From: a virus
Length of the DNA stretch: 22,406 nt
IMG/VR virus record: IMGVR_UViG_3300018424_005672
Location: 1-22,406 of that record
Reading direction: 5' to 3' (one strand)
In this document: positions 1-16,600 of the stretch, in pieces
How the letters are laid out: each line of letters opens with the position of its first letter
Position numbering within the stretch: position 1 is the stretch's first letter
Made by a program: the position numbers and the translations under genes
Notes under the pieces: model-generated
What the model saw: the letters and a program-made list of their open reading frames with translations, nothing else
The model's database searches: none
Told to the model about the DNA's origin: nothing

Positions 1-3000
1 AGATATCCAGGAGTTTCACCAGGAATACAACCACCAGGACCAGTATCTTGATCATTATCACTCCACTCCTCAAATGCTCTAATCCAAACAGGTTCGCCGT
101 TTGGATTAGAGTTGCCAGTAGGGCTGTTGGTTGTTCTGATAGTATCGAATTCATCTAATTGAATAACATCAAAGCATCCAAATCCCCATAAGTTAATGGC
201 AACAGCATTTTCCTCAACAATAGGATCGGCTTCTTCAAAATCATCTGTTGGTAATCTATTTCTATATCCACCATATGATCCCCAATTAACAATACCTTTA
301 AACGCAGGATCCGGTTGACCAGTTAGCAATTCATGAATATGGAATGGAACTTCAAATAGCTGTTGATCTTTCAAAGAAACAGGACCAGTAACCTGACCTG
401 ATGTAGTAAATTCAATAACACCAGAAACATTGGAATATCCAGAAGTTTTTAATGTTCCAATATCATAGAACTGAGAATCCTGTGGTGGTTGTCCTGTTGC
501 TGGTTTATCAACCTGTGGAATAACATTACTAGAGGGAGAAGCAATAGTATCAATAAACCACAAACCACCATGAGATCCAGGAATATCAGAAGATTTGTTA
601 GATGTTGTCTTTTGTGGTCCAAATTGTGGTGCCAAGGCAGGAGAAGATGCCGATTGACCATCAACAGGTCCAGTACCTACAAGTTTCTTATTTCTGAAAT
701 CAGGTAGTCTAAACTGATTAGCAAAATTTTGTCCGTAAGTATACCCAATTACGTCAAATAAGGCAGGATAATCATCTGGTTCTAATGCTTGTCCATAACA
801 CCATATGAATCCAGGGAATCTAGAATTCAAACTACCTTCTACATCACCAAATCCACTTGCTTCATCACCAGCAACACTATCTTTGAATGCAGGCATCATA
901 GTTCCGATTGGAAGACCATCAAACTTAGTATTAAACTTAGCAACAGGTAATCCAGTTACTCCGCCAAAATTAGGATCTTGAACTACATTCAAACTACTAT
1001 ACCATTGTCCTAATAGTGGTTCTGGGGATGGTACAGTCGTAAACACAGTGTAAGAACCAGCCCCAGAACCAATGATTACATCTCTTGTCGTACTAAATCC
1101 AGGGAAAGGAGGAGAATTTAATTGTGCTTGAACAGTATCGCCATTGACAGCACCCGTGTAAGGACTTGCTGCTGTATAAGGGGTGAATGGACCACCATTA
1201 ACACTAATTTCAATAACACCATCACCATAAACATCTACCCCACCGGGAGCAGTAATACCTGCAATAGTAACAATAACAATAGAGGGTGTTGGTGCCCCTG
1301 GTGTGGCATTAGTATTTGTTCCAAAATTAAAATCATTAGGTGTAGTTCCAAATGATCCAGTAACACCAACTGTCCAAGTAACAGGGGGTGCTGTTCCTGC
1401 TGTGACAGGGAATTGAGTAAATGCTCCGGGTGTTGCGGTAGTAGTATAATACAGTCTAATAATATCAAACTCAGAAACTGTTACTGTAGTTAAATCAGTC
1501 TCTGTGCCATTCAATTCGATATATGCTATTTCACCAGCAACAAAACTTCCTCCAAGGTTTGAAGAAGGATCTACAACAACACTGATGTCTTCACTGATAT
1601 CCGTAATTGTTTGGTAGTTACTGTATACTTTAACCAAAGGATCTTGATCGGTTTTTGTGATAAAAACAAGAGTATCTGGTTCGGTATCGGGTTCTGCTTC
1701 TGTTGTAACTGTCCACAAAACAGGATCGGATGTTCCTACAATGACTTGTGTTTGAACAATAGTAGAATATAATGCAGAAGATGTAATTCTAACTTGAATT
1801 CTGTCACCATTATTTAAAGTTCTATCTGCTACATTACCAGTTAGTCCATTTACATATGGACCATATACATACGAACCACCACTTAATACACCAACACGAA
1901 TTTCAGCACCAGCATCAGCCGTTGCTACAACAGGAACATTAATACCACTAATTGTCTCCTGGTTAGATTCTATTAATGTACTGATAGGAGCATTTATTAC
2001 ATTATCAAAGAAAGGAGGGTTTGGTTCTTCATCAGGAGCAGGACCAGTTTCAACTCTCCAAATCTGACCAGGAGTTTCGGTTCCAACAACAGAGGTAGCA
2101 CTGTAAACTAGATTATAGTTTGGACCAGTCTCAAGTTGAAGTTGTAAATATTGTCCATTAGTAATAAATCCACCAGCAGTAAATGGTTCAGACAAAATAC
2201 TAACAGGATCAGATCCAATTCTAAGGCTGGCACTATTACCAGTTCCTGATACACTTACACTAACAGGACCAGTAATACCTGTAATTTGTTCTACATTCGA
2301 TTGATAGAATGAGTTTGGTTCTTGTTCCTCAATGTCTGTCCAAGAATAAGCATCAGGCAATGTATCCTGTGGTGCCCATCCTACTAAAACATATCCATCA
2401 TTACCGGGAGCAGCACCATTTTCCCCTGGTAATAAATCTGCTGTATTCTGAACGAATCCGGTTGTTCCATCACTAGGAACAAAATACCATCCACCACCTG
2501 TTCCACCATCACCATCTAAATCTGTGGTGTTTAATAAACCACCAAATGAATCGAATTGTTGTGTGTTGGTGTTACCACCAGAACCCCAGCCACCACCGGC
2601 ACCACCACCGCCTCCACCTTGACCAGAATTACTTACACCATTCTCTCCGACAAAATTAATAGTTCCGATTGGCTGTAGTGATCCACCACCTAATCCTTGG
2701 TTGCCGTTTTGTTCATCAGTTTGAATAATAGTATCAGCACCAGCACCTGCTCCACCAGCGCCGCCACCAGCAACTAAAAGTGTACTAATAAACGCTGCTG
2801 TATCAGGATCTAGTAAGTTAATGGCACTAGCACCACCACCGCCTCCTCCACCACCGGAGTATTCTACGGTAGAACCATCACCACCAAAACCACCAGTAGC
2901 ATAACCAAAACCACCGTCACCGCCAGAAGCACCCTGATCAAAATCTTCTCCATTTGTTCCTCCCTGAGCAGCAACAACACCTAATCTTCTAGTAAATGGA

Positions 3001-5525
3001 GCGGGCCAAAAAGATTCTGGTGTTAGCAAAGTTCCAATAAGAATATTTCCAGGTGCTCCCTGTCCACCAAAACTACTTGGTAGATCTTGTCCACCATCTC
3101 CACCACCAGCACCTAGCATAAACACATCAATGGAGTCTGCCCATTGTGGTAGGAATAATGAAGCATCAGACCCACCCGATCTTAACACATAAGTGTAATC
3201 CGATTTTTGTGTATAAACAACAAATCTATCAACAGCTAAACCAGAAGCAGCACTTAATCCGATTTGATAAGTAGCACGTCTAAATGTTCCCTCTGGTCCA
3301 GCATCTATTCTAATATAAGCAAATGGAGTGCTGGGTGTTAAAGTTGCAATTGATGAAAAAATAACTCCATCTGAGCTCACAGCAGCGTTAGAGAATGGTG
3401 TAGAGGAAGCAGATACAATACTTATTGTAGTATTAGCATCTAATCCCTCAATAGGAATTTGTGCTATACAAGTTTGACCAGGAGTAGCATCAAACTTAGG
3501 TTCTGCTCTAAATCTATATGGGACAGTTCTAGGTGCCCTAGTTGTTAATGTTAGAGTTTCCTGAATATTAGAATATGTAGGAGATAATGGACCTGCTGAG
3601 GGATTGCCTGTAGGACCACCAAAAGGAGGACCAGCTAAACGAATTGTACTTGATATAGTAATATTATAATCAGAAGGGGAGTCTAATCTAAAGTTTAAAA
3701 TATCTCCATCTTGAACATATAATTGCTGAACCCACGTACCGGCACCATTTTTTCTAATTTGACCAGAACCTTGAGTAACATTTACTCTTATTTCAACAGG
3801 ATCATTAGATGTTGGAGTGGTATTATATGTTGGCGTTCCACTTGTTCCTTGATTAGATTGAGGTGCTTCTAAATCACTATATGTATTAGCAGGATATTCC
3901 GTCCCTAATCCAGTAATAGGAACATCTACATAATAAGTCCTGTTAATTTCAGCATTAGGGACAGTATCAGTAGATGATACGTTTACCTGTCTATATTGTA
4001 AAATTTGATATTGAGCGTTAACGATACCACCAAGAATTTCAAAGGTATCATTTTCTGTATATCCAATACCTCTTTCTACAAATTCACCAGCAAAAATTGA
4101 TCCATTAGCACCAACTTCGGTAACTCTAAAAGTTAATCCAGATCCAACACCAGTTAAAGTATTCGTATTATATACAGTTCCGACAGTATAACCTTCACCA
4201 ACTGTTGCTGGAGATAGTACAACGTTAGCATCAGAAAATGTAAATACTCTATTAGGTCCAAAAGGAATTGGATCAGGATATCTATCTACTTCAGTCCAAA
4301 CTTGCTGATTATCATTTGTTGTTCCGGCAACCTGAGTAACTTCGAAGTTACCATTTCCTTCATCAGCTCCAAATGTTCCCAGAGTATTATTTTCAAATCC
4401 ACCTGCTAATACCTGTCCAGGATTAGCAAATATAGTTAGAGATCCTGAAGTTTTAGTAGCGTAATCATTACCAATTAAAGTTCTTACAAAAACTACATCG
4501 CCAAATGTAAGATTTGGAATATTCTGAGACCAAGAGACTTGATCCAGAGATATTTCCATATCGCCGGTTGAAGTTGCCTCAACAATAGCATCGGCATCAA
4601 TACCAATAATATCAATACTGGTAGTTTTATAATCCCCAAAATTATCAGTTAGAGGAGTTGCTGTAGGTTGTAATCCAGGTCCTGTGTTGGTAGATCTTTC
4701 ATCAACATAGTCAACAAAAGTTGTTGATGTTAACGTACTAACCGTTTGATCTTGTGCTCTTGTTGTAAGACTCCATGTAGTAGAGAACTGATCGCCAGGA
4801 GTCCAATAATTATCAGAAAGAGTAAGAGTAACGTTTGAATTAGTGGTGTACCAATCTTCTGTCTGTACTCTTAGTCTAACAGTATCTCCTGGTTGAACTG
4901 TAAAATACGAATTACCACTACTAGATCCAGTAGCAGACGCTGGATCAACTAAAGTTACAACGTTTCCGACTCTCTGTAAAACTTCACCTGTAATGTTAGG
5001 GCTAATAATATATCTACCTACGGCAATATCAGCTTCATTGCCACTAGTAATGGTGGCAGTTCTACTACCAGATACTGTGTTTAATGTGACTGGTACAAAA
5101 GAATTTGCCTCGTTAATCCAAACACTGTCATTAATAGTAAATGCTGCTGACGATGCTAGATTAGGGAAACTTGGCCTTGGTCCAGAAGCAGAAGACGAGA
5201 TACGAATAGGTATACGTAATTCAATACCAGAAATAACTTTTGCTTCGGAATAATATGTAGTATTTCGTTGGATACCATTAGTTCCAGAGGAATCAAAGTC
5301 ACCAGGAAGAGTAGGAAATTGTACGCTTTCGGAAGCGTATTGATCAAAGAACTGAAATGCATCTGGAGCTGCATCAGGAACTTTAGTTCCAATGGTAACT
5401 GTATCTGTTCCTTGTCCAATCTGAATCTGGAAACTGACATTCGTATCCCATGTATCGGGAGTGGGATATCTAATCTCAATAGTATCTCCCGGAGATACTA
5501 TAACTGGTGTAGATGAAAATGGCAT
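1..5525 (-). CDS. Giant modular fibre/adhesin: Ig-like repeats, glycine-rich domain, tail-collar domain; 3' partial
   Basis: I read this frame through from the ATG at 5525 (MPFSSTPVIVSPGDT) to base 1: 1841 codons without a stop, so the C-terminus is outside. An in-frame TAG just upstream fixes the start. Domains: residues 1-770, beta modules with recurring V-x-x-GD-T/I-(I/L/V)-x-(I/L/F)-R strands (SPGDTIEIRY, QPGDTVRLRV, QDGDILNFRL) and two G-x-GY segments; about 775-1050, a glycine-rich domain opening FLPQWADSIDVFMLGAGGGDGG and closing NDGYVLVGW; about 1055-1500, roughly four Ig-like repeats (QTI-x-G/D-I, NGD, then W-x-V-x-T); about 1535-1610, a tail-collar domain (IGTMMPAF, RFPGFIWCYGQALEPDDYPALF, FRLPDFRNKKLVGTG); H1729-I-H1731, a probable metal-binding HxH. 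It combines in one chain modules that are separate genes upstream. Likely a long receptor-binding fibre; no clear Shine-Dalgarno is seen. Confidence 0.8.
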   Translation of the reverse strand, partial: MPFSSTPVIVSPGDTIEIRYPTPDTWDTNVSFQIQIGQGTDTVTIGTKVPDAAPDAFQFFDQYASESVQFPTLPGDFDSSGTNGIQRNTTYYSEAKVISGIELRIPIRISSSASGPRPSFPNLASSAAFTINDSVWINEANSFVPVTLNTVSGSRTATITSGNEADIAVGRYIISPNITGEVLQRVGNVVTLVDPASATGSSSGNSYFTVQPGDTVRLRVQTEDWYTTNSNVTLTLSDNYWTPGDQFSTTWSLTTRAQDQTVSTLTSTTFVDYVDERSTNTGPGLQPTATPLTDNFGDYKTTSIDIIGIDADAIVEATSTGDMEISLDQVSWSQNIPNLTFGDVVFVRTLIGNDYATKTSGSLTIFANPGQVLAGGFENNTLGTFGADEGNGNFEVTQVAGTTNDNQQVWTEVDRYPDPIPFGPNRVFTFSDANVVLSPATVGEGYTVGTVYNTNTLTGVGSGLTFRVTEVGANGSIFAGEFVERGIGYTENDTFEILGGIVNAQYQILQYRQVNVSSTDTVPNAEINRTYYVDVPITGLGTEYPANTYSDLEAPQSNQGTSGTPTYNTTPTSNDPVEIRVNVTQGSGQIRKNGAGTWVQQLYVQDGDILNFRLDSPSDYNITISSTIRLAGPPFGGPTGNPSAGPLSPTYSNIQETLTLTTRAPRTVPYRFRAEPKFDATPGQTCIAQIPIEGLDANTTISIVSASSTPFSNAAVSSDGVIFSSIATLTPSTPFAYIRIDAGPEGTFRRATYQIGLSAASGLAVDRFVVYTQKSDYTYVLRSGGSDASLFLPQWADSIDVFMLGAGGGDGGQDLPSSFGGQGAPGNILIGTLLTPESFWPAPFTRRLGVVAAQGGTNGEDFDQGASGGDGGFGYATGGFGGDGSTVEYSGGGGGGGGASAINLLDPDTAAFISTLLVAGGGAGGAGAGADTIIQTDEQNGNQGLGGGSLQPIGTINFVGENGVSNSGQGGGGGGAGGGWGSGGNTNTQQFDSFGGLLNTTDLDGDGGTGGGWYFVPSDGTTGFVQNTADLLPGENGAAPGNDGYVLVGWAPQDTLPDAYSWTDIEEQEPNSFYQSNVEQITGITGPVSVSVSGTGNSASLRIGSDPVSILSEPFTAGGFITNGQYLQLQLETGPNYNLVYSATSVVGTETPGQIWRVETGPAPDEEPNPPFFDNVINAPISTLIESNQETISGINVPVVATADAGAEIRVGVLSGGSYVYGPYVNGLTGNVADRTLNNGDRIQVRITSSALYSTIVQTQVIVGTSDPVLWTVTTEAEPDTEPDTLVFITKTDQDPLVKVYSNYQTITDISEDISVVVDPSSNLGGSFVAGEIAYIELNGTETDLTTVTVSEFDIIRLYYTTTATPGAFTQFPVTAGTAPPVTWTVGVTGSFGTTPNDFNFGTNTNATPGAPTPSIVIVTIAGITAPGGVDVYGDGVIEISVNGGPFTPYTAASPYTGAVNGDTVQAQLNSPPFPGFSTTRDVIIGSGAGSYTVFTTVPSPEPLLGQWYSSLNVVQDPNFGGVTGLPVAKFNTKFDGLPIGTMMPAFKDSVAGDEASGFGDVEGSLNSRFPGFIWCYGQALEPDDYPALFDVIGYTYGQNFANQFRLPDFRNKKLVGTGPVDGQSASSPALAPQFGPQKTTSNKSSDIPGSHGGLWFIDTIASPSSNVIPQVDKPATGQPPQDSQFYDIGTLKTSGYSNVSGVIEFTTSGQVTGPVSLKDQQLFEVPFHIHELLTGQPDPAFKGIVNWGSYGGYRNRLPTDDFEEADPIVEENAVAINLWGFGCFDVIQLDEFDTIRTTNSPTGNSNPNGEPVWIRAFEEWSDNDQDTGPGGCIPGETPGY

Positions 5526-5559
5526 TTTCTAGATATAATGGCACTTATCGTCCTAGTAT
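5526..5559 (-). other. Longest intergenic gap (34 bases) before the second giant fibre
   Basis: The only real spacer in the window. CTAAATA at its upstream edge differs by one base from the late-promoter core ATAAATA. CCTA-AATAC-TAGG around 5551-5563 could pair only over 4 bases, too short for a terminator. No good Shine-Dalgarno is visible. It may hold a weak promoter for the giant gene, but this is not established. Confidence 0.3.
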
Positions 5560-5754
5560 TTAGGCTTCTTCCAGGGGTCTAATATCTACCCACTCTCCAC
5601 CATTTATTCTTACCTGAATAGGTAAAGATGCTTTTATTTCTGTTGGGGTTTCAATATGATCTACTTGTACTCTAGCAGATTTGTACATGTCCGTTTTTTC
5701 AGGATGTACATCACTAACATTCATGTTAGTGTCTTTAAATTTTCTTTTGCTCAT
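5560..5754 (-). CDS. Small protein carrying the adhesin C-terminal tail motif (64 aa)
   Basis: The N-terminal half is charged and basic (MSKRKFKDTN). The C-terminal half, ETPTEIKASLPIQVRINGG then EWVDIRPLEEA, follows the tail of the three upstream adhesins (PVEIKTSDGDAQVQINNDG then NWLDMREI): EIK, a Q-V-Q/R-I-N core, then a tryptophan and D-(I/M)-R. So the tail that ends each adhesin also exists as a separate gene. The ATG at 5754 overlaps the previous stop (ATGA), and a weak GGA lies about 9 bases upstream. It is followed by the longest gap of the window (34 bases). If the tail is a docking or trimerisation element, this protein could occupy or cap the same site; that is inference. Confidence 0.66.
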   Translation of the reverse strand: MSKRKFKDTNMNVSDVHPEKTDMYKSARVQVDHIETPTEIKASLPIQVRINGGEWVDIRPLEEA

Positions 5755-5966
5755 AATAATGTCCAGTAATATTCAATTAGTTTTCTAACCATTTCTGGTT
5801 CTTCCGAAATATCATCTCCAGGCAAATAATGTTTAAATTTAGTTTGTTGATTATTGACGCGAGGAACATCATCAATAACAGTATAATTTTGGGTAACATG
5901 TTTTACAGAACATGTAGTCCCTTCAATATCAAATCGAACTTCGGGAATAAAATTAGTAACGCTCAT
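5751..5966 (-). CDS. Small protein with a partial adhesin-module motif (71 aa)
   Basis: I do not recognise a named family. The start at 5966 (MSVTNFIPE) is set by the ATGA overlap with the previous stop; a longer in-frame TTG version beginning inside the upstream gene is unlikely. Residues about 10-33 (VRFDIEGTTCSVKHVTQNYT, then VIDDV) line up with the last strands of the adhesin beta module in paralogue 1 (VEFDITGTTYSFNVTTRPP, then VIEES). The second half, with YLPGDDISEEPEMVRKLIEYYW, is different and looks like a short helix. So it may be a derived fragment of that module or an adaptor using the same strand pair. No signal peptide or membrane segment. Its stop overlaps the next ATG by 4 bases. 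It sits between the adhesins and the second giant fibre, so a virion role is plausible but unproven. Confidence 0.65.
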   Translation of the reverse strand: MSVTNFIPEVRFDIEGTTCSVKHVTQNYTVIDDVPRVNNQQTKFKHYLPGDDISEEPEMVRKLIEYYWTLL

Positions 5967-6199
5967 ATTTGTCTCATATCTAGCCAATTTCCATCACTAT
6001 TTATTTGTACCTGGGCATCCCCATCACTAGTTTTGATTTCATTAGGAATTTCAATATCATTGACACCAATAGGGTTAGATATAACAAAAGGTTCATTTAC
6101 ATCAGGAAACACAGCATCAATGTCTGGATCTGGGAAAGCATCCGGGGATAATGGTTGACCTTCAGCATCAAATGATTCTTCGATAACTGGTGGTCTTGT
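5963..6199 (-). repeat. Constant 3' block of adhesin paralogue 3 (DNA repeat)
   Basis: Partner of the block at 9074-9313: near-identical stretches at 5974-6034 and 6144-6199, separated by a divergent linker-coding segment. Confidence 0.75.
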
Positions 6200-7561
6200 G
6201 ATAGCTTGGAAAGAAACAGATTGTGGTCCTATTTGAAAACTTACAGTTTTACTATTTGGTTGACCAATAGCAAGTCCTTCTCCATTTGTACCACTTACAA
6301 CAGTAGATGTATTGAATGGCATTGATGTAAATCTAACATATACAAAATCTAACTGTGATACTACCTGAGAAGACCAATTACTAGCATTTAAAGAAAGATC
6401 TGTACCACCAGCAGTAGAAGTACAAACAATAGGCATATCAGTTCCACTCCAATCAACTATAATATAATATACAGTATTTGGTTCTAACGAATTTACCGGA
6501 GTATTTCCTGGTGTAGCGGTAGTACCTACATTAAACGTAGAGAAATTATTGTCATTTTGTATACAAACTTGTTGCTGGGCACTAACTGCTGTCGAATCAT
6601 TAGGACCACTATAAACTGTTAAGGTATACGTATAACATGCTGGTGAGTTCACCCCTGCTACAGATTGAGGCAATGGAACTTGAACTGGACCTATTGCAAA
6701 AAATCCCTGATTACTATACGGGGCAGGAAAATTAGCTGTAATATCAGATGTTAATCCACCTCCACTGATTCTATATCTAGTTCCATAAGTATTGGCGGTA
6801 AGGAGAGCTGTATAAACAGGAGTACCTAATGGTTGGAACTCGGGTACTATGTTTAAACTATCAATTTGAGCAGGAAGATCAGTATAAGCGTAGTTTGCTC
6901 CCCCAGCGCCGCCGCTGCCTTGACTTTGTAATTGAGCGGGAAAACGATACCCGCTACCACCGCCACCGCCACCATTGCCACCACTGGATCCATCACATCC
7001 ACCATTGCCGCCACCAGCGCCACCAGAACCAGCGCCCCCACCGCCGCCGCCTCCGCCGTCGCCACAACCGCCGCCGCCTCCGCCGCCGCCACCAGAAGGA
7101 CCACCCAAACCACCGAATCCACCAGCGCCACCGCCTCCATTGCCGTTACGGAATCTCGAACCTCCACCACCACCACCGCCACCTCCGGCGACTACCATCC
7201 AACGGTTTCTAGTGTTGTCATAGATAGCACCACAACCACCACCGCCGCCGCCAGACCCAGAGCAACCAGCTTTATTCCCGCCAGGTCCACCTCCAGCTGC
7301 TCCACCGCCACCATTGCCAGCATTACCAAAACATGATCCACCACCATTACCATTGCCGGATCCATACCCAGTAATAGTTATAGCTTGGTAATCAGGAAGT
7401 CTAAAATTTCCATTTCTACCCTGACCGCCCCCGCCGCCGCCGCCACCTTCATCACCGCCGCCGCTGCCGCCAGATCCACCTCTACACGATACAAATATAT
7501 TAAAAGCACTAGCGGGAATGTTTACAGATCCTAATCCCCCGGAAAAATTTTGTAAAGGCAT
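5963..7561 (-). CDS. Glycine-rich adhesin paralogue 3, most glycine-dense (532 aa)
   Basis: The head (residues about 25-225) is the most extreme of the three: runs of up to nine glycines, interrupted by short islands such as NRWMVVAGG, SRFRNG and GYRFPAQLQ, with several GGC motifs. The first Ig-like region (about 240-340) has diverged (ACYTYTLTVYSGPND). The second beta module returns clearly (SLEPNTVYYIIVDWSGTDMP, FVYVRFTSMPFNTS, TRPPVIEE), as do the linker (SFDAEGQPLSPDAFPDPD) and the tail (EIKTSDGDAQVQ...NWLDMRQI). The ATG at 7561 is 1 base after the previous stop, with AGGGAG 7 bases upstream. The TGA overlaps the next ATG (ATGA). Its 3' end is nearly identical in DNA to that of paralogue 1, closer than to the adjacent paralogue 2, which suggests gene conversion or an unequal duplication history. 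Likely a receptor-binding adhesin. Confidence 0.77.
   Translation of the reverse strand: MPLQNFSGGLGSVNIPASAFNIFVSCRGGSGGSGGGDEGGGGGGGGQGRNGNFRLPDYQAITITGYGSGNGNGGGSCFGNAGNGGGGAAGGGPGGNKAGCSGSGGGGGGCGAIYDNTRNRWMVVAGGGGGGGGGSRFRNGNGGGGAGGFGGLGGPSGGGGGGGGGCGDGGGGGGGGAGSGGAGGGNGGCDGSSGGNGGGGGGSGYRFPAQLQSQGSGGAGGANYAYTDLPAQIDSLNIVPEFQPLGTPVYTALLTANTYGTRYRISGGGLTSDITANFPAPYSNQGFFAIGPVQVPLPQSVAGVNSPACYTYTLTVYSGPNDSTAVSAQQQVCIQNDNNFSTFNVGTTATPGNTPVNSLEPNTVYYIIVDWSGTDMPIVCTSTAGGTDLSLNASNWSSQVVSQLDFVYVRFTSMPFNTSTVVSGTNGEGLAIGQPNSKTVSFQIGPQSVSFQAITRPPVIEESFDAEGQPLSPDAFPDPDIDAVFPDVNEPFVISNPIGVNDIEIPNEIKTSDGDAQVQINSDGNWLDMRQI
5998..6005 (-). promoter_or_regulatory. Possible T4-type late promoter element AATAAATA (second copy)
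   Basis: Same sequence and placement as the copy at 9109-9116, here 31 bases before the ATG at 5966. It lies in the homologous tail codons of paralogue 3, so the two copies are not independent evidence. Paralogue 2 lacks it. Confidence 0.25.
6955..7460 (-). repeat. GC-rich glycine-codon low-complexity tract
   Basis: Dense GGN codons appear on the plus strand as CCG/CCA/CCT triplet runs, most strikingly around 7039-7092. This is a sharp GC island in an AT-rich window and is in frame with adhesin paralogue 3. Confidence 0.8.
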
Positions 7562-7562
7562 T

Positions 7563-7644
7563 TTAAATCTCCCTCATATCCTGCCAGATTCCACTAAAAT
7601 TACGCTGAACTTGAGCATCTCCATCACTAGTTTTTATCTCTACA
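7563..7644 (-). repeat. Constant 3' block of adhesin paralogue 2 (DNA repeat)
   Basis: Encodes the same EIKTSDGDAQVQ...DMREI tail. 7615-7644 is identical to 9126-9155, while the codons between QVQ and DMREI differ from the other two copies. Confidence 0.65.
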
Positions 7645-9074
7645 TCAATCTCAATATCATTTAAATTTATCTGATTAGATTTAATAAATTCTTTTGGATT
7701 TGGACTAGGAAGTATGTCAATATCAGGGAATGGTAATTCATCCGGAGATGGAGATGATCCTTCGGCATCAAATGTTTCTTCAATAACAGGTCGTCTAGTA
7801 GTAGCGGTAAAAGATTTAGTATCAGTTCCAAACTGAAAACTATATGTTTGTGTATTAGTTTGCCCTACAGTTTCTCCACCAGTAGTTCCACCAGGAACCG
7901 TAGATGGATTGAAATCAGGAGATCTATATCTAACATAAAAAGTGCTTCCTCTAGGAACTAATATACTACCAGTTGTCCATCCACCGCTAGGACTATTACT
8001 GACCCGACAATTACTATTGCCAAATGCAAATGTATTCATATCAACTCCGGTATATGTAACAGCAGAATAATAGTTTGTCAACGGTTCTAATGCACCAGCA
8101 GTTCTACTAATATTTCCAGGAAAAGCACTATTTCCAACAGTAATACTACTAGGATTATTATCATTATAAACATTAGCTACTACTGACGCTGTAGTAGTTC
8201 CGCCAGGACCAGTTGCTGTTAACGTATATGTTCTTGTCGCCGGATTAGACAAACTATTGCTACTAGGTGCCGTAGATTGTAGTCCGGTATTTACATTTCT
8301 AGTTCCAGCTGGATTGGTCACACTACCAATTCCCTGATTAATACTAAGGGAAGACGCGAAATTTGTTGACCATGATAATGTAACTGTGCTCGATGGAGTT
8401 CCAGTATTGCTAAATTGTGTGGTAGAAGTGAAAGAGAAAATTTGTGGTGGATAATAATCCCATTCTATTCTAGCAGCGCCATTTCCACCAGAACCAGCAC
8501 CGCCGCCATCATTTCCAGCGCCGCCGCCACCAAAGTTACGACCGCTGCGACCACCAGGGCAACCTCCAATGTTGCCACTGTTTATATTTGTTCCAGCGCC
8601 ACCATTACCACCTCCACAACCACCTGTTCCTCCACTTCGATTTAGAGCACCAGCACTGCCACCATCCTGCCCATTATCATCATCGTCGCCTCGGGCACCA
8701 GATCTTAAAATCTGACCATCAGATCCAGCACCGCCACCGCCGCCGCCGGAATCATCATTTCCTGTTCTTCCGCCAGTTGCTCGAACATTATATCCACCAC
8801 CGTTTAATCTGCTAGCGGTTCCATTTTGCCCGGAGTCACATCCAGGAGATCCACCACCGTTGGCAACTCCTACAGTATAACTAAAACCAGAACCATTTCT
8901 AACAAAACTAGATTGAGCGAATCCACCTCCGCCGCCTCCGCCGCCTTCTTCATCACCATCACAATCCCTATATCCAGATGCACCGCCACCAACACATCGA
9001 ATCAGTACATTTCTAGTGGCAAATGGTAATCTATCGGAATAACTTCCAGGACTGGTGTAATTACGGGCTGGCAT
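7563..9074 (-). CDS. Glycine-rich adhesin paralogue 2 (503 aa)
   Basis: Same architecture as paralogue 1. The glycine-rich head (about 20-205) starts with RNVLIRCVGGGASGY and an acidic DCDGDEEGG stretch and ends GNGAARIEWDYYPP. It is followed by an Ig-like domain (VTLSWSTNFASSLSINQGIG, ATRTYTLTATGPGGT), a second beta module (LEPLTNYYSAVTYTGVDM, FYVRYRSPDFNPST, TTRRPVIEE), the linker (TFDAEGSSPSPDELPFPD) and the tail (EIKTSDGDAQVQ...WQDMREI). I chose the ATG at 9074 (MPARNY) and not an in-frame TTG at 9098. The ATG overlaps the previous stop as TAATG, AGGGAG lies 5 bases upstream, and its two paralogues also begin Met-Pro. The head differs strongly from paralogue 1 while Ig domain and tail stay close. 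It contains several cysteines, unusual for a phage fibre. Likely a receptor-binding adhesin. Confidence 0.78.
   Translation of the reverse strand: MPARNYTSPGSYSDRLPFATRNVLIRCVGGGASGYRDCDGDEEGGGGGGGGFAQSSFVRNGSGFSYTVGVANGGGSPGCDSGQNGTASRLNGGGYNVRATGGRTGNDDSGGGGGGAGSDGQILRSGARGDDDDNGQDGGSAGALNRSGGTGGCGGGNGGAGTNINSGNIGGCPGGRSGRNFGGGGAGNDGGGAGSGGNGAARIEWDYYPPQIFSFTSTTQFSNTGTPSSTVTLSWSTNFASSLSINQGIGSVTNPAGTRNVNTGLQSTAPSSNSLSNPATRTYTLTATGPGGTTTASVVANVYNDNNPSSITVGNSAFPGNISRTAGALEPLTNYYSAVTYTGVDMNTFAFGNSNCRVSNSPSGGWTTGSILVPRGSTFYVRYRSPDFNPSTVPGGTTGGETVGQTNTQTYSFQFGTDTKSFTATTRRPVIEETFDAEGSSPSPDELPFPDIDILPSPNPKEFIKSNQINLNDIEIDVEIKTSDGDAQVQRNFSGIWQDMREI
7569..7574 (-). promoter_or_regulatory. Shine-Dalgarno AGGGAG for adhesin paralogue 3
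   Basis: AGGGAG lies 7 bases before the ATG at 7561, again inside the Met-Arg-Glu-Ile terminus of the preceding gene. Confidence 0.75.
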
Positions 9075-10708
9075 TAAATCTCCCTCATATCTAGCCAATT
9101 TCCATCATTATTTATTTGTACTTGGGCATCTCCATCACTAGTTTTTATCTCTACAGGAATTTCAATATCATTAGTATTAACAGAATTAGTGTTTACAAAT
9201 TCTTCTACAATAAAATTGCCAATGGGAAGAGAGATCTCTGGATCGGGGAAAGCCTCTGGGGATAATGGTTGACCTTCGGCATCAAATGATTCTTCAATAA
9301 CAGGTGGTCTTGTAGTAACATTGAAACTATATGTAGTTCCTGTAATATCAAATTCAACAGTTTTAGTATTTGGTTGACCTATTGCTTCGCCAAATGAATT
9401 TACGCCGCTAGAAACAGTACTAGTGTTATATGGGAGAGAAGTAAATCTGACATAAAAAGGATTTCCCACAGGAACCAATACAGTTCCTGTAGTAAATCCA
9501 CCACCACTATTAGCACTAACTTGAACACCAGATCCACCAGTAACATTAAGTGGCATATCTGTTCCTGTTGTAGTTACAGTAGCAGTGTATACCGTAATTT
9601 CTTCTAAATTATTAGTCCTATTTCTACTACCAGGATTGACTAGGGTAGCTGCTGTAACAGTAGAAGGTTGATTGTCATTAAAAACTCTCGCTGTTGCCGT
9701 TGCCGTTACAGTTCCACCGGGACCAGATGCTGTTAGTGTATATGTTCTTGTTGCTGGCGAAGTACCGGGAGCAACTGATTGTAAACCCGTGTTTATAGTT
9801 AAAGATCCCCCACCTGCCGGTGATACTGCTCCAACTCCCTGATTAATACTAACATTTGTAGCATATTGGGTGGTCCAGGTAGCAGTTACATTACTACTAG
9901 GAATTCCAGTAGAACTAGTTTGCTCCGTAATTGAAAAACTATTAATAACCGGAGCTGCATAAATTTCTGTTATTCTTACAGCACCACCTGCTCCCCATCC
10001 AGTATACTGCCCGCTGCCACACCAAGGATTACCACCGTTACCGCCGCCACCGCCGCCATATCCTTGATCTGGATTGAATGAAGAAGGACAACCTGTTAGA
10101 CTTCCATTTAATAATCTACCTCGTCCACCTCTTCCGGGATATGCCGCGGTAACACCACCAAAACCATTAGAAATACAACATGCTAATACATAACCACATC
10201 CACTGCCTCCACCAGCAGCTCCACCCTGACCGCCTCTTACGGCAAAACTAGCACCACAAGGACCCCCTTGTCCACCTTGGTAATTAGTGTCACGACTTCC
10301 ACCATTGCCACCCGGAGCGAGTGTAAAAAGTGCTAATTGACCACTCGAAGTAGCACTCCCACCGCCGCCAGCGTCACCGGCAGCTCCTCCGCCAGCAGTA
10401 GCATCAAATTCTAAACCAGTAAAAAAAGATCTTACATAAGAAGCGGATCCAGATTCTCTACTGTCATTAATATATCTACCTCCACGTCCAGCTTGGATTT
10501 GTATAGTACTCCCAGGAACAGTTGGATATCTTCCTTGAACTAATCCCCCTCCACTGCCACCGCCACCGAGAGAATCTCCATCATTATCAGCAAATCCTGA
10601 TCCACCTCCACCAATAACTGTTACATTTATACTAGTACACGCAAACGGAACTGTCCAGTTGACATTAACGTTAGCGGTGCTATTTGAATTTCCAATCCAA
10701 TCCGGCAT
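9074..10708 (-). CDS. Glycine-rich adhesin paralogue 1 (544 aa)
   Basis: Domain order: (1) residues about 10-250, a glycine-rich domain that opens with a hydrophobic strand (CTSINVTVIGGGGSG) and closes with GAGGAVRITEIY, with variable stretches between glycine runs; (2) about 251-345, an Ig/PKD-like domain (TWTTQYATNVSINQGVG, ATRTYTLTASGPGGT); (3) about 365-460, a second beta module (GTDMP, PFYVRFTSLPYNTS, ending TTRPPVIEE); (4) an acidic proline linker (SFDAEGQPLSPEAFPDP); (5) a C-terminal tail DIEIPVEIKTSDGDAQVQ...NWLDMREI. Glycine-rich domains with this layout occur in phage proteins. The polyglycine-II adhesin gp38 of Salmonella phage S16, at the fibre tip, is a functional analogy only. 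GGGAG, 8 bases upstream, supports the ATG at 10708. Its TAA shares one base with the next ATG (TAATG). Likely a receptor-recognition protein. Confidence 0.78.
   Translation of the reverse strand: MPDWIGNSNSTANVNVNWTVPFACTSINVTVIGGGGSGFADNDGDSLGGGGSGGGLVQGRYPTVPGSTIQIQAGRGGRYINDSRESGSASYVRSFFTGLEFDATAGGGAAGDAGGGGSATSSGQLALFTLAPGGNGGSRDTNYQGGQGGPCGASFAVRGGQGGAAGGGSGCGYVLACCISNGFGGVTAAYPGRGGRGRLLNGSLTGCPSSFNPDQGYGGGGGGNGGNPWCGSGQYTGWGAGGAVRITEIYAAPVINSFSITEQTSSTGIPSSNVTATWTTQYATNVSINQGVGAVSPAGGGSLTINTGLQSVAPGTSPATRTYTLTASGPGGTVTATATARVFNDNQPSTVTAATLVNPGSRNRTNNLEEITVYTATVTTTGTDMPLNVTGGSGVQVSANSGGGFTTGTVLVPVGNPFYVRFTSLPYNTSTVSSGVNSFGEAIGQPNTKTVEFDITGTTYSFNVTTRPPVIEESFDAEGQPLSPEAFPDPEISLPIGNFIVEEFVNTNSVNTNDIEIPVEIKTSDGDAQVQINNDGNWLDMREI
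9080..9085 (-). promoter_or_regulatory. Shine-Dalgarno AGGGAG deciding the start of adhesin paralogue 2
   Basis: AGGGAG is encoded by the Met-Arg-Glu codons of the upstream DMREI terminus, 5 bases before the ATG at 9074. It favours 9074 over the upstream in-frame TTG at 9098. Confidence 0.75.
9109..9116 (-). promoter_or_regulatory. Possible T4-type late promoter element AATAAATA
   Basis: AATAAATA on the minus strand fits the NATAAATA late element reported for T4-like cyanophages and ends 34 bases before the ATG at 9074, a suitable distance. However, it is made by the codons for Q-I-N in the adhesin tail, and a similar match occurs inside the giant fibre gene at 14111-14118, far from any start, so it may be chance. 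Confidence 0.25.
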
Positions 10709-10711
10709 GAT

Positions 10712-11068
10712 CTACGCTCCCATTTTTATTTTAAAATTTGGTGTAATTTTTGGAGCACGGGTATGTGTTTTAACTGTAATAAAATCTACACCTACCTTAA
10801 CAGTTAAATCATATGGATTCTTTTCACCAGTAAGATCAAATGGTTTCGACACAAATTTTATATACAAACAATCAGAAACATCTAGAACAATAGGATCAAC
10901 ACCAAAATTTACATGATCCTTGCTAATCTGAAATACCATATTATATGGTTTAACTTCAGTAGGATCTTCAATATCTAATCTACCTAGATTAATTGTATAT
11001 ACTTCCGTTGGTTCTAACTCACCAACAGAAACGTTCTTACCATAAGAATTTTTGGCATATTTGATCAT
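10712..11068 (-). CDS. Stand-alone Ig-like module protein (118 aa)
   Basis: A small protein with no signal peptide or membrane segment. Its body parallels the third domain of the three downstream glycine-rich proteins. Here one reads GELEPTEVYTINL, then CLYIKFVSKPFDLTG, then TVKVGVDFITVKTHTRAPKI. The neighbours have LEPNTVYYII, then FVYVRFTSMPFNTS, then TVSFQIG...F-A-I-TRPPVIEE. So it looks like that beta-sandwich module encoded alone. The start is set by the ATGA overlap with the preceding stop (ATG at 11068). Its last codons (KMGA, then TAG) contain GGGAG, a good Shine-Dalgarno for the next gene's ATG at 10708, so the genes are translationally linked. A virion-associated accessory or adaptor for the adhesins is plausible. 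The module similarity is seen by eye; function is inferred. Confidence 0.72.
   Translation of the reverse strand: MIKYAKNSYGKNVSVGELEPTEVYTINLGRLDIEDPTEVKPYNMVFQISKDHVNFGVDPIVLDVSDCLYIKFVSKPFDLTGEKNPYDLTVKVGVDFITVKTHTRAPKITPNFKIKMGA
10717..10721 (-). promoter_or_regulatory. Shine-Dalgarno GGGAG for adhesin paralogue 1
   Basis: GGGAG lies 8 bases before the ATG at 10708 and is formed by the last sense codons (Met-Gly-Ala) of the 118-residue gene. It supports this start and coupling of the two genes. Confidence 0.7.
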
Positions 11069-11949
11069 ATTTTTATTAAATATTCTACAAAAATATAAGG
11101 AGAGATAGCATCATCTAGTTTTTGTACATTCTCAGTAGTAAGAGTTACCTCCGTAATAAGACCCTGAGGTTCAATAGAAGTATCTTGATATTGATATACA
11201 AATGATTGATTTTGTTTTAACTCTGCTGCTTTTGGTAGATTAATGCCGTGTGTATGACCAGGAGCCGGTTCTGCTCCCAATGGAGGATCAATCTGAACTA
11301 AATTGTTAGATCCTTCATTTGATCCATTATTACCACCAGAACCACCATTAGAAATCCAGTTAGTATCAGCCCAGTTGCCAAGATATGTAAAATATCCAGC
11401 GTTAGCAGTGTGTCCATGTGCTTGGAAATTTTCTTCTGTTAAAAAATCTTCTTGAGTTTTACCATCATTTTGAGTTGCTTCAAATAATGGATTTCCGTTG
11501 AATGGAATTGGATCGCTAGCAGCAACAACAAATTCACCATCATATGAAATAGTTAAATCATTACCAACTAAACTATTTGCTTGAACTTGAGCGCCAACTC
11601 TAAACAATTCAGTATCACTAGTAGTAACAAGATTATCAAAATATTGTCCAGAAGAAATAGAGGTTCTAATATACTTAGAACCCAAATCAGGTAGTTGAAA
11701 AAATTGTTCTGGCAGATCAGGATCTTTTGAAAATGTCGATGAACCACCTACACCTAAAACATCTGCTAGACCAGGATACAAAGATGCTAAAACAACAGCA
11801 CCATTACATCTTAAATAACCAGCTGGCACATATGTTTTAAAATCACCAAAGTTGGGAAAGTTATTTGCTGGTAATTGAATAGTGAAAGGAATAATTGTTC
11901 CGGTAGTTCCTCCAAATTTTCCCTTTTCGTTTGTATAGTATCTGGTCAT
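11065..11949 (-). CDS. Second tail-collar domain fibre protein (294 aa)
   Basis: The N-terminal third is a tail-collar domain: GTIIPFTIQ, then VPAGYLRCNGAVVLASLYPGL, then QFFQLPDLGSKYIRTS. Further on are two histidine motifs, AHGHT near residue 180 and APGHTHGINLP near residue 232. HxH pairs like these coordinate metal in trimeric fibre tips. The C-terminus ISPYIFVEYLIKI is the typical last beta strand of this class. The ATG at 11949 sits 1 base after the TAA of the first collar gene; upstream there is only a weak GAG about 9 bases away. Its stop TGA overlaps the next ATG by 4 bases (ATGA). It is about half the length of its neighbour and shares little with it outside the collar, so the two are probably different fibres rather than a recent duplication. 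Likely a receptor-binding or baseplate fibre. Confidence 0.8.
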   Translation of the reverse strand: MTRYYTNEKGKFGGTTGTIIPFTIQLPANNFPNFGDFKTYVPAGYLRCNGAVVLASLYPGLADVLGVGGSSTFSKDPDLPEQFFQLPDLGSKYIRTSISSGQYFDNLVTTSDTELFRVGAQVQANSLVGNDLTISYDGEFVVAASDPIPFNGNPLFEATQNDGKTQEDFLTEENFQAHGHTANAGYFTYLGNWADTNWISNGGSGGNNGSNEGSNNLVQIDPPLGAEPAPGHTHGINLPKAAELKQNQSFVYQYQDTSIEPQGLITEVTLTTENVQKLDDAISPYIFVEYLIKI

Positions 11950-11950
11950 T

Positions 11951-13663
11951 TTAATAAGCTCTAATTAAAGTTAAACACGACAATGATGGTGAAGTGGCAT
12001 TAATAATTAATTGTAAAGCACTAGGAAAATTATCAGGAATTACATTTGCCTGAACTGTATTTGTTTGGATCTGAGAATCAATATATAAGCTACCATTATT
12101 GTATGTAATAATAATTTCACCCTGGTGATCGTGCTTAGTAATAACATCAGTTACTGTTGTTGTAGCAGGATCAATCTGTGTAAAATTAACAGCAGCATTA
12201 TTAAACATTACATTAGTTCCTGTAGTGATGGGGTCATCACTAACTAAGTCAAAGTTAACAGAATTAATTTGAGTTCCCTGATCGGAAAATGGAATGAGAG
12301 TAGTTGTTCTAAAATATCCATTTTGAAACAAATATTGTAGATCGGCATTATCAAGGTTTGTTTGCCCATTTCTGGCACGTAATTTTTTTGCTCCATCCGC
12401 TGCCGTAAAACCGGTTTTTGCTATACCATGTCCAGATGCTGCAGTTTCGAAAGGAACGTGTTGCCTTGCTGGTTCTGATCCAGAAATAGATCCAAGAGAA
12501 TATCTTCCTACACCAGTAGTCCAAGGATTTAAAACAGTATTAATATCACCATCTGCCTGAGAATTCCCCCAGATGTTTCCAGATTCCAATTCATCATTGC
12601 CTTCGAAAACTCTTTGGCAATTAAGTGTAACAGCACCAAGAAATCCACCATCCAAATCTTCAAGTCCGTACCAGAACTCAAGAACCAAAATTTCTGGATT
12701 ATCCCAAACACAAACTCCTCTACCAGGGCGATCGGTATTATCGCCAATATTTAATGTTTCATAAGATCCTGGGTGGAGGTGTGCAGGTAAGTGGTTTCTT
12801 CCTAATTTTCTTCCAACAATGTTAACAGTTTCTACTCCAAATCCAGGAATAAATTCTAAAGCAGCACCTTCTCCGTCTTCTGTAATTTGTCCAGAAAAGA
12901 ATGGTGATCCAACTTTAATTACTGTAAGGAAAACATCATTAACGGTGTCAACACCACCTACTAAATTTCCAGGAATTCTAAGTAAATCTCCTTCTTCATA
13001 ACCCTCACCTTTAGATTTAATAGTAACAGTGTATGTGTTATCCGTGTTTTGAATAACATTAAACAAAGCATCTACGCCATTACTAGGTAATGGATCTCCA
13101 ACTTGATACTGTGCCGGAACATCCGTGTAAAGAACAGGTGTTGCTGCATTAGCAGCAGTAGAAGAAGGATCAATTTCTACTTTTAATATAGTTCCGTCTG
13201 GATCAGGTACAAAATCAAAATTTAAATCTGTTAGATAAAAATTAGTTCCTGGTGTTCCAAGATCTCCCTCTGTTCCAATAAATCCAGCCATGATTGAGGC
13301 TGCTGCTGGTCTAGGATAGTCGGGATCGCCATCACCAGATAGAGTATCAATCCCCAGGGTTGGTTGGTCAGCACCAAATGTAGTAGTATCATTGGTAAAA
13401 TAATCTATAGCAATATCAGCAAGAGTTTTTTGATTAGGTTGTGGCACCTGAAATGTACCAGTATAATTCGGGAAGTCTCCTCCGGAATTACCACCATAAG
13501 TATTTTTTAAAATCCTTCTCAATAAAGGATACTCGTCTGCTTCTAATTCCTGACCAGCACAGATTAACCATCCAGGAGGAATTTCAGTTAAAGGACCAGC
13601 CCAAGGAACAGCAGTTCCAATGGGCTGTGCTTCAGCAGTTCTAACTCTATTATATGATACCAT
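11951..13663 (-). CDS. Phage tail-collar domain fibre protein (570 aa)
   Basis: Residues about 14-75 match the phage tail-collar fold: PIGTAVPW near the start, then PPGWLICAGQELEADEYPLL, a YGG turn, and F-Q-V-P-Q-P. Residues about 205-245 contain a GEGYEEGDLLRIPG module common in marine phage structural proteins. Two histidine motifs, HLPAHLHPG and KHDHQ, resemble the HxH metal sites of trimeric phage fibres (in T4 gp37 they bind iron). The C-terminus, ending SPSLSCLTLIRAY, is the usual end of collar-type fibres. The ATG at 13663 lies 1 base after the TAA of the giant fibre gene; no strong Shine-Dalgarno is seen, so translation is probably coupled. The next collar gene starts 1 base after its stop. 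Role: likely a short tail fibre or fibre tip binding the host surface. Its functional equivalence to T4 gp12 is inference. Confidence 0.82.
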   Translation of the reverse strand: MVSYNRVRTAEAQPIGTAVPWAGPLTEIPPGWLICAGQELEADEYPLLRRILKNTYGGNSGGDFPNYTGTFQVPQPNQKTLADIAIDYFTNDTTTFGADQPTLGIDTLSGDGDPDYPRPAAASIMAGFIGTEGDLGTPGTNFYLTDLNFDFVPDPDGTILKVEIDPSSTAANAATPVLYTDVPAQYQVGDPLPSNGVDALFNVIQNTDNTYTVTIKSKGEGYEEGDLLRIPGNLVGGVDTVNDVFLTVIKVGSPFFSGQITEDGEGAALEFIPGFGVETVNIVGRKLGRNHLPAHLHPGSYETLNIGDNTDRPGRGVCVWDNPEILVLEFWYGLEDLDGGFLGAVTLNCQRVFEGNDELESGNIWGNSQADGDINTVLNPWTTGVGRYSLGSISGSEPARQHVPFETAASGHGIAKTGFTAADGAKKLRARNGQTNLDNADLQYLFQNGYFRTTTLIPFSDQGTQINSVNFDLVSDDPITTGTNVMFNNAAVNFTQIDPATTTVTDVITKHDHQGEIIITYNNGSLYIDSQIQTNTVQANVIPDNFPSALQLIINATSPSLSCLTLIRAY

Positions 13664-13664
13664 A

Positions 13665-16600
13665 TTAGATTTCTAGCAACCACCAACCTTGTTGTGTAAC
13701 TGGAGCACCAGTTCCTGCTCCATTGAACTTGACGCTTCCCAAGTAAACTAATCCAAAAGAAGCATTTGGAGTCTGGACTACAAGTTCGCCACCAGAATCA
13801 TAACCAGATCCCAATCCAGCAATAATACCAGAGTTGGTAACATCTCCTTGAATTCTTACACCATTTGGTGCTCTCATTCTTAGCGAGATATTATATGTCA
13901 GTAGTCCACCAACGTCAACAATTCTGACAATATCACCGTGAGTTGGGTTTTCTGGTAGTCTTATTGCTATATCAGCTGATGGAGCAATAAAGTAGTTGAT
14001 GTTAGAAACAGCATCTACAAATTCAATACCACCACTAATATATTCCCACTTTCTAGCACCAGATGGAGCAAAGAATCCAGACTGTTGAGCAAAATCAATA
14101 GATCCATCATTATTTATGCTGAAGATGGAATCTCCAACCTCTAAGTCTGGGAACAATGGAATGAGTTCATCTGCTAAGACATTGAAGTTACCACCCTCAA
14201 CTGTAACAGGACCACCGAAGATACTTTCGGTAGCATCTTCTGTTCTAATATTACCAGCAATAGTTAGATTGCCCGTGCTATTCTGGAGAATTAATTGTGT
14301 ATCGTTGGCATCATTAGCAATTCTAAGATTGCCTGAGGTAATTGTAGTAGATCCTGTATCAGACTCAACTACAAATCTATCAAAATTAGCCTCACCAATT
14401 CTTAAATCACCACGGATGAATGTCTGTCCATCACAACTATCAACAATGAACTTTTCGAAATCAGGATCAGTTGTTCCATCAGTAACAATTAATTTTTCAA
14501 CATCACATACATTAGATCCTTCTAGTATTAGATTATTATTAAGAGTTAGTTCACCATTAATAAATGTTTCACCAGTTACAGAGTCTACAGAGAAAGCAGT
14601 AATTGCTGGAGTTCCGCCATCGTTGATAACAAACAACTGATTAGAAACCAAATTAATTTGGTTAATGACCGTAAGTTCACCGAGAGTTCCATTATCAGCA
14701 GGAGATAATCTGAATAGATCACCGATAATCAAGCTACCAGCAAATGTTCCGGTGCTGATGTCATCGAGATCTCCAGGGTTAAGTGTTCCTAGTAGAGGAT
14801 CTACAATGAAAGAAACATTTCTAGAGCGAATATACTTAACAAGAACAGCATTATCTGGGTGATCATCTCTTAGATAACGATATGTCGCTGGGTTGCCATC
14901 TACATCAGGGCCAGGAACATACTCATTACCTTGTGTAATCTGGTTCTGAGCACGGGCAACAATAACACCTAACTGATCAGGTCCAACGTCGTTGAGATTT
15001 GTTTTCTCTACAACTCTTAGAAGTTCGCTGTATTGCTCACCTACAGGAGAAACAGCAACATTCTGACCAGCAACAGAATTAGTACGATCAATTAAGATGT
15101 ACTGGTTCTCAACAAATTCATCAAGAATAGAAACATCACTAATTGGTAAGAAGTATGTTGGTTGACCAAACTCATCAACACCAGAAGTGCCAGGGAATAC
15201 AGTAGAACTTAGATCATCAGGACCACCCCATGTTTCGACACCAGCAGTATCTAGAGTGATAGAAATACCAGTCTTCTTGTAAAGATCAATATTGAAGTTC
15301 TCGATGTCATCGCCAGCTCCATGAACTTGAACAGGAGTTCCATAAGAACCACGAACAATTTCAAACTGACCAGAGTTTAATCCACCTTCCATGGTGGTAT
15401 CACCAAATAGTGTGGTGGAACTTAGAACTTCTAATCCGTTGTTGATTGTAGTGCTTCCGCCGAGAGCACCAATGTTAATATCAGAAGCAGAGAGACCGAT
15501 ATTGAGTTCGATAACAGTATCAATAAAGATGTTAGCCGTTCCAGCATTTGTAGTTAGATTAGAAATACCTACAGATGGTACATTGAAGGCATTGATACGT
15601 AGATCACCATCAATTTCAGTAAATCTGCTGTAGATCTTAAAGATAGATCCACTTACTAAGCTGTTGGAGTTGTTGGCATAAGCGCCACCCATTTCAATGA
15701 CACTACTGTAAGAAGAATCATTGTTGGCTACCGTTCCGATATCAATCTTAGATTGAATAGCGTTGCTGTGGAGATTGAACTCAGTAATTGTACTAAATCG
15801 TCCAATATTAACTGTCTGGGTTCCAGCAATGTTACCAATGTTGATCTCTTGTGTATTTGTAGTCTGGTTGAAGAGATTAGCAAATTCACCGAAATTACCA
15901 AAATTAATATTTGTAGCAACAGAAGGAATAATATTAAAGTTCTGTGCTGTTGTTGTGATATTTTCTCCCTGAATCTCAAGATTAGATTCGAAAACAACAT
16001 CTTCAGTTACTCTTACATCACCAACTACAACAAAAGTAGCATCAAGGTTAGCAAAGTCTGTGTTGATACCGACTCTACCATTATTTGTAGTGGAAATTCT
16101 GAATGTAGCAACATCACCGGGAGCAGCACTGTTACCACCGACTAGTAAAGCATGATCTAAGTTAGAATAAGTTCTAACATCATTTGTCTCATTAGAGATA
16201 AACTCAGTATATGGAAGAGCAGTACCACTAAACCAAGCATTACCAACAACATCCAAGTTTGCTCTTGGTTGTACAGCAGTAGATACAAATCCTTCTTCCT
16301 GATCACCATCAATACCGTGATCAGCTCTTGCTAGAGTGTTAACACCTAACTTAAACTCACCATACAATTCTGTATCTGTTCTTAGTGCTTCAGCACCAAT
16401 AACTCCAACCTCTCTCCACTTATTGAGTCCTACTTCAATCGTAGGTTCGCCAGGGAGACCAGTGAGTAAAACTGGATCGTTAATGTTATCTCTGGCAATA
16501 ATAATGCCAGGAATGGTAACATCAAAAGTTCCGCCAGGAATATCATTAATGTTTTCTGCTTCTCTTAGTCCATTAATTGTTAGGAATCTACCAACGAAAC

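Follow-up and report, generated by a model that had tools for sequence, protein, structure and literature searches.

A probable bank of three virion adhesins with recombination-swappable glycine-rich heads in the tail-fibre module of a T4-like cyanophage

Three consecutive genes of a virus fragment (IMG/VR virus record IMGVR_UViG_3300018424_005672; the window hereafter, that is, the whole stretch of 22,406 bases that was analysed) encode glycine-rich proteins with dissimilar heads and similar 3' ends, which raises the question of whether such a locus serves to exchange receptor-binding heads by recombination or to furnish one particle with several adhesins at once. We propose that a T4-like cyanophage here probably keeps a bank of three virion adhesins whose heads can be swapped by recombination.

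Judged by its genes, the contig belongs to a T4-like cyanophage (Kyanoviridae) and represents its tail-fibre module: the relatives of its collar and short-tail-fibre genes were T4-like cyanophages, and among those with a name Synechococcus phage Sf-FR1 came closest. Every gene discussed here lies on the minus strand. In the order of transcription, the gene for a long tail protein (13665-22403) comes first, followed by those for two collar proteins, one gp12-like (570 aa) and the other a tail collar protein (294 aa, 11065..11949; phrog_4714, 1.6e-60), and for a 118-aa protein. Next come the adhesins A, B and C and two small genes (71 and 64 aa), and last the gene for a short-tail-fibre-like protein, which runs off the contig end and has at least 1841 aa (3..5525; phrog_4924, 2e-97). 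The tail collar gene, which forms the upstream border of the cassette, occupies the equivalent place in the surveyed Kyanoviridae cassettes, and the short-tail-fibre-like protein, encoded at the downstream border, is 33.6% identical over 84% to its Sf-FR1 homologue. The trio is thus placed between collar and short tail fibre as in annotated Kyanoviridae, where this interval holds from one to six large genes.

The sequence-only reading had given the three genes a common domain order, and this was borne out by the open reading frames, by alignment and by AlphaFold2 (AF2) models of C and B. In each protein, the glycine-rich head is followed by an Ig-like domain and then by a second beta module, and a disordered acidic linker leads to a C-terminal anchor of about 40 residues. 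Adhesin A (544 aa, 9074..10708; tail HMM, 217.6 bits) carries its head at about residues 1-250 (9959..10708), with a match to Gly_rich_2 (PF21722, 2.3e-9) over residues 13-246 and head L028.1 of a related cassette as its nearest neighbour. The start of adhesin B (503 aa, 7563..9074; AF2 pLDDT 78) was moved from the listed TTG at 9098 to the ATG at 9074 on the basis of an alignment of family starts, in which relatives begin at the equivalent position; this ATG overlaps the stop codon of A (TAATG). The head of B, about residues 1-208 (8451..9074), was 55-64% identical to heads L073.2 and L059.2. Adhesin C (532 aa, 5963..7561; AF2 pLDDT 80) matched the virion structural protein family phrog_2155 (5.5e-15), and its TG-like head, about residues 1-230 (6872..7561), was predicted with a pLDDT of about 81-94 from residue 11 on. 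In both models, head, Ig-like domain and second beta domain were confident and were followed by the disordered linker (residues 462-506 in C and 435-477 in B) and a low-confidence tail, in which the anchor region was poorly predicted (pLDDT about 40-66). The heads of A, B and C differed, as had been claimed, both in sequence (mostly 35-55% DNA identity per 20-codon block) and in glycine density, with peaks of 38, 45 and 62 per 100 residues, respectively. The short-tail-fibre-like protein also showed a glycine-rich domain of its own (PF21722 at residues 791-1021, below the cutoff) and weak repeats of the second beta module detected with the tail HMM.

We also compared the 3' ends of the trio. 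A block of 80 nt in A (9238..9317) was 90% identical to its partner in C (6124..6203), and so was a second block of 90 nt in the anchor (A, 9084..9173; C, 5973..6062), the two being separated by a more divergent linker. The best 20-codon stretch between A and C reached 93% DNA identity, and the last 129 nt were 78% identical between A and C, 78% between A and B, and 67% between B and C. The likeness of the ends of A and C is therefore real, but the figure of up to about 95% put forward for them was overstated and holds at most for short stretches. At the protein level, the tail of A scored 168 bits against that of C, a clear excess over chance, and a tail HMM built from other genomes matched A, B and C at 1e-60 to 1e-67. 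The anchor motif common to the paralogues, EIKxxxPIQVRxxxxxxWxDxRxI, is altered in A to C (TSDGDAQVQIN), yet the tail HMM matches all three; within four complete genomes, the motif was present in cassette genes only (three in Syn1, three in S-PM2, six in S-CAM3 and one in Sf-FR1).

Parts of this architecture were also found in small genes at both sides of the trio. The 118-aa gene (10712..11068), which adjoins the collar gene, encodes a free-standing second beta module with neither head nor anchor, as it matched positions 70-176 of the tail HMM with 41.9 bits (E 4e-14; the best of 200 shuffles gave 6.8 bits). It is possibly a remnant of a lost adhesin; no such gene was seen at the equivalent place in the nearest relatives, L027 and L028. 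Downstream, the ATG of the 71-aa gene (5751..5966) overlaps the TGA of C, and the 64-aa gene (5560..5754), 41% identical to the 58-aa SfFR1_27, contains the anchor motif only (tail HMM positions 184-237, 37.0 bits); its product may serve as a cap or a partner for the docking site. The two small genes recur before the short tail fibre in most of the closer relatives of the window.

Regarding the function of the heads, a PDB sequence search with the trio alone returned antibodies only. In fold, the head of C matched the TG domains of ALK/LTK (Foldseek E 1e-4, probability 1.00), and its family profile matched ALK sequences (1e-4). The model of B matched the tail tip of Bxb1 and, with E 3.3e-4, the fibre of cyanophage Pam3 (7ypx). 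The TM-score on target length was 0.33-0.42 for the ALK/LTK and Pam3 matches, which relate the heads to TG (TNF-like/glycine-rich) domains as partial matches. With regard to the suggested polyglycine-II sandwich, the models gave a TG-like fold matching ALK/LTK and Pam3. For Pam3, the glycine-rich domain has been proposed as the receptor binder, and docking is assigned to the N-terminus (PMC9608196). The window proteins carry the head at the N-terminus and the shared part at the C-terminus, so docking via the C-terminus would be the natural reading. The heads would bind receptors, and all three adhesins may be present in the particle; several adhesins on one particle would be consistent with the annotation of cassette relatives as virion structural proteins.

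In order to compare the locus across phages, relatives were found via alignments of the collar and short-tail-fibre genes; searching the phage collection with the DNA of the window gave no match, and an alignment of the three copies yielded 141 pattern matches and no confirmed relative in the viral contig collection. We extracted 90 cassettes between collar and short tail fibre, 59 of them distinct (labelled L0xx). When the tail, defined as the last 150 aa, was compared with the head in the 154 genes having a paralogue, the best match was a paralogue of the same genome for 92 of 154 tails and for one head, competing with genomes of less than 65% collar identity; at a cutoff of less than 80% it was so for 51 tails and no head, against a mean of 2 and a maximum of 8 in label shuffles, these counts not being independent events owing to kinship among the genomes. 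Likewise, the tail tree required 29 changes of genome label (shuffles: mean 38.5, minimum 35) and the head tree 41 (shuffles: mean 38.3). Between genomes, the correlation with collar similarity was stronger for tails (rho 0.79) than for heads (0.43), in keeping with a tail that has to fit the virion; glycine-rich sequence complicates such scores and can inflate similarity. The window itself is discordant, since the head of B groups with those of L059, L073 and L076 (support 96) whereas its tail falls in a group with L027 and L028 (support 81). Head families occurred in first, middle and last positions; some of them kept one position, such as family 5, whose heads were last in every case.

Direct replacements were observed among isolates. 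S-RIM44 Np_42_0711 and S-RIM44 Sn_08_0709/Syn1 are about 98% identical on either side of the cassette middle, but their gene-2 heads are unrelated (proteins of 486 vs 884 aa), with the right breakpoint 260 nt before the stop codon. The gene-2 head is likewise replaced between S-CAM4 and ACG-2014j (582 vs 1861 aa), with the right breakpoint 205 nt before the stop. In both pairs, whose backbones are about 90-98% identical, the left breakpoint lies at most 9 nt from the start codon. More generally, in clean head replacements between close relatives, the left breakpoint was within about 15 nt of where the gene starts, and the right breakpoint preceded the stop by about 200-780 nt, in the 3' part of the gene itself. 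The number of large genes per cassette varied from 1 to 6, and genes were gained or lost, L056 being L054 plus one gene and L044 being L041 minus one gene. Finally, L048 combines the gene-1 head of L047 with its gene-4 tail, and 715 and then 198 informative sites follow this pattern without exception, with the crossover located within 6 nt; this fits a single crossover between the 3' ends of copies 1 and 4, or, as the contig is metagenomic, could be an assembly join.

The comparison that had been called for thus revealed varying copy number, head swaps, and breakpoints that fell either on the start codon or within the 3' part. Head/tail discordance, different heads on near-identical backbones and the breakpoints therefore support head swapping in the relatives, and fixed orthologous copies, the outcome named beforehand as contrary to shuffling, are contradicted by the isolates. 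For the population of the window, the claim that recombination swaps or reorders heads extends by inference from these relatives. No swap was seen in the one near-identical contig found (99.85% over 11.4 kb), which ends inside head A. This break was rejected as evidence of a population swap, since it amounts to no more than 3 mismatches over the final 15 nt at a contig end.

The junctions between the genes suggest how an exchanged head could be put to use. A Shine-Dalgarno core directly preceded the start codon at 45 of 85 junctions, compared with 12% in random stretches, and most of these cores were located in the final codons of the gene before. The constant 3' end would then supply both the anchor of its own protein and the translation start of the next head. 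As the ribosome-binding site of the next gene is often encoded in this 3' end, a newly acquired head would be expressed immediately. We propose that each adhesin probably docks to the tail or baseplate via the shared C-terminal anchor, and that the N-terminal TG-like head binds a host surface structure at variable loops. Every head-coding stretch lies between two homologous 3' ends, one belonging to the gene before it and one to its own gene, so that homologous recombination between co-infecting phages, or between copies within a genome, could replace, add or delete whole heads while anchor and reading frame are kept. Signs of a diversity-generating retroelement were also looked for: no template-like repeat pair stood out in 4000-13000 of the window, and reverse transcriptase was absent among the genes examined of this contig, which is a fragment.

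Several other explanations have to be weighed against head swapping. Old tandem duplications, after which heads diverged fast under selection and tails slowly under constraint without any exchange of heads, would account for the tandem arrangement, the conserved domain order and the conservation of tails across all relatives. We nevertheless regard this history as very unlikely, since heads resemble those at other positions in other genomes more than those of their neighbours, while tails are closer to their neighbours, and it is contradicted by the isolate pairs, in which near-identical backbones carry unrelated heads. It could also be that only the tails recombine, gene conversion homogenising the anchor for one virion partner while the heads remain mostly stable orthologues. 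The fixed position of some head families, such as family 5, and tails that follow the backbone agree with this, and gene conversion or recent duplication can be other sources of the concerted evolution of tails. The clean head replacements and the gene gains and losses in close relatives speak against it, and the isolate swaps reduce tail conversion to a partial role, which makes it improbable as the whole explanation.

Head swapping could also be mimicked by assembly, given that several of the cases come from metagenomic (IMG/VR) contigs and that similar repeats, here the repeated 3' blocks, can confuse assemblers and be joined by them. We hold it extremely unlikely that the swaps are such artefacts, as the same pattern appears in the named phage records S-RIM44, Syn1, S-CAM4 and ACG-2014j, and positional shuffling occurs among named phages of different genera. 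A different doubt concerns the role of the proteins, which may be structural or decoration components with heads that do not bind the host, the relatives being annotated only as virion structural proteins. Against this stand the matches of the heads to receptor-binding folds (ALK/LTK TG and the Pam3 fibre), their being the most variable part, and the position of the genes between those for collar and short tail fibre; we consider a decoration role decidedly unlikely. Exchangeable heads on virion adhesins thus remain our preferred reading.

A broader version, in which all Kyanoviridae would share such a bank as their main host-range switch, built on the 3' ends as a recombination platform and fed from a cross-genus pool of non-redundant heads, can be offered only tentatively, and we think it somewhat doubtful. 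Heads would then be continually loaded, reordered and dropped, within genomes as well. The non-redundancy of heads is supported by the 59 distinct cassettes, as no genome had two heads of one family (60-bit threshold) where 9.5 such cases were expected, or 4.7 in thinned genomes (with 10 of 2000 shuffles as low as observed); this suggests that one head cannot stand in for another or that a second copy tends to disappear.

The glycine-rich hypervariable host-range protein gp38 of T-even phages, which is reportedly exchanged by recombination in conserved sequence (Trojet 2011; Tetart 1998), had been invoked as a parallel for the trio. The likeness to these adhesins (S16 gp38, PDB 6F45) lies in glycine richness, hypervariability and recombination in conserved sequence, but gp38 is a single gene whose N-terminal helices dock to gp37 and whose polyglycine domain is C-terminal, whereas the cassette has up to six genes, the products of which carry the head at the N-terminus and the constant end at the C-terminus and contain Ig/beta modules. 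Neither the listed PDB sequence matches nor the listed fold matches of the window proteins included gp38, and no gp37 gene adjoining the trio was found by gene calls or Pfam/PHROG. Given the reversed polarity, this absence of sequence or fold matches and the ALK/LTK TG and Pam3 matches of the heads, membership of the gp38 type is not supported and only the analogy stands. Pam3 gp24 (PDB 7ypx), also from a cyanophage, shares a TNF-like plus glycine-rich receptor-binding head; it differs in being a simplified fibre with an N-terminal docking helix, like S16 gp38, and a C-terminal head, one fibre gene and a chaperone being described (PMC9608196). The tailspikes TSP1-4 of Ackermannviridae (CBA120) resemble the cassette in that several receptor-binding proteins with conserved attachment ends occur per virion and receptor-binding domains are exchanged between genes and genera (PMC11721090). 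These tailspikes attach by the N-terminus and have beta-helix enzyme heads, in contrast to the C-terminal constant end and the TG-like or other folds found here. Pfam/PHROG gave no match to gp10-like XD or beta-helix domains, AF2 and fold searches indicated TG, Ig and beta modules, and the trio, having neither an N-terminal gp10-like XD nor a beta-helix catalytic domain, was not assigned to these tailspikes. In Hafunavirus, a glycine-rich adhesin encoded within a hypervariable region explains host range among viruses of one species, but a single adhesin gene with a small gene, and no tandem bank, is described there (PMC8651126).

The cassette genes themselves correspond to the Kyanoviridae virion structural proteins T4-GC 737-739 (S-PM2p223-225, Syn1_035) of Sullivan 2010 (PMC3037559), which cites proteomics of S-SM1, S-PM2 and Syn9. 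Their annotation as virion structural proteins is thus already known, and so is the hypervariability of the large tail-fibre region of cyanomyophages, recognised at region level only in the host recognition cluster of pelagimyophages and cyanomyophages (PMC7029224). The open-access literature searched contained no description of head/tail modularity, of the anchor or of head swapping in the cassette. A constant attachment end combined with an exchangeable receptor-binding part is a principle known from gp38 and Ackermannviridae tailspikes (PMC11721090); what is new here is a C-terminally anchored, multi-copy version, in which glycine-rich receptor-binding heads would appear with reversed polarity and in several copies per genome.

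T4-like cyanophages are abundant in the ocean. Recognisable homologues of genes 34, 35 and 37, which encode tail fibres in T4, are missing from them, and their replacement was left open by a review (PMC2984593); in a survey of 138 isolates, lineage and host range corresponded little (PMC5112629). If our proposal is true, heads independent of the backbone would explain both the missing fibre homologues and the weak link between lineage and host range, and this short locus would be a testable candidate for the host-range determinant of abundant cyanophages of marine-type cyanobacteria.

Some cassettes departed from the common plan. In Sf-FR1 (L006:14572-16480), gene 23 encodes a 304-aa head without a tail and gene 24 a 333-aa tail without a head, as if a frameshift had divided one adhesin in two; L063.2 (634 aa) is an example of an intact relative. 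Between adhesins 1 and 2 of L027 (5089-6235) lie four small genes of 96, 52, 173 and 50 aa, two of which resemble each other and encode cysteine. In S-H9-1, ACG-2014h, S-WAM2 and S-RSM4 (L015, L021, L025 and L026, respectively), the cassette is replaced by a single gene that ends in a collar-type C-terminus (YIIKAY or similar).
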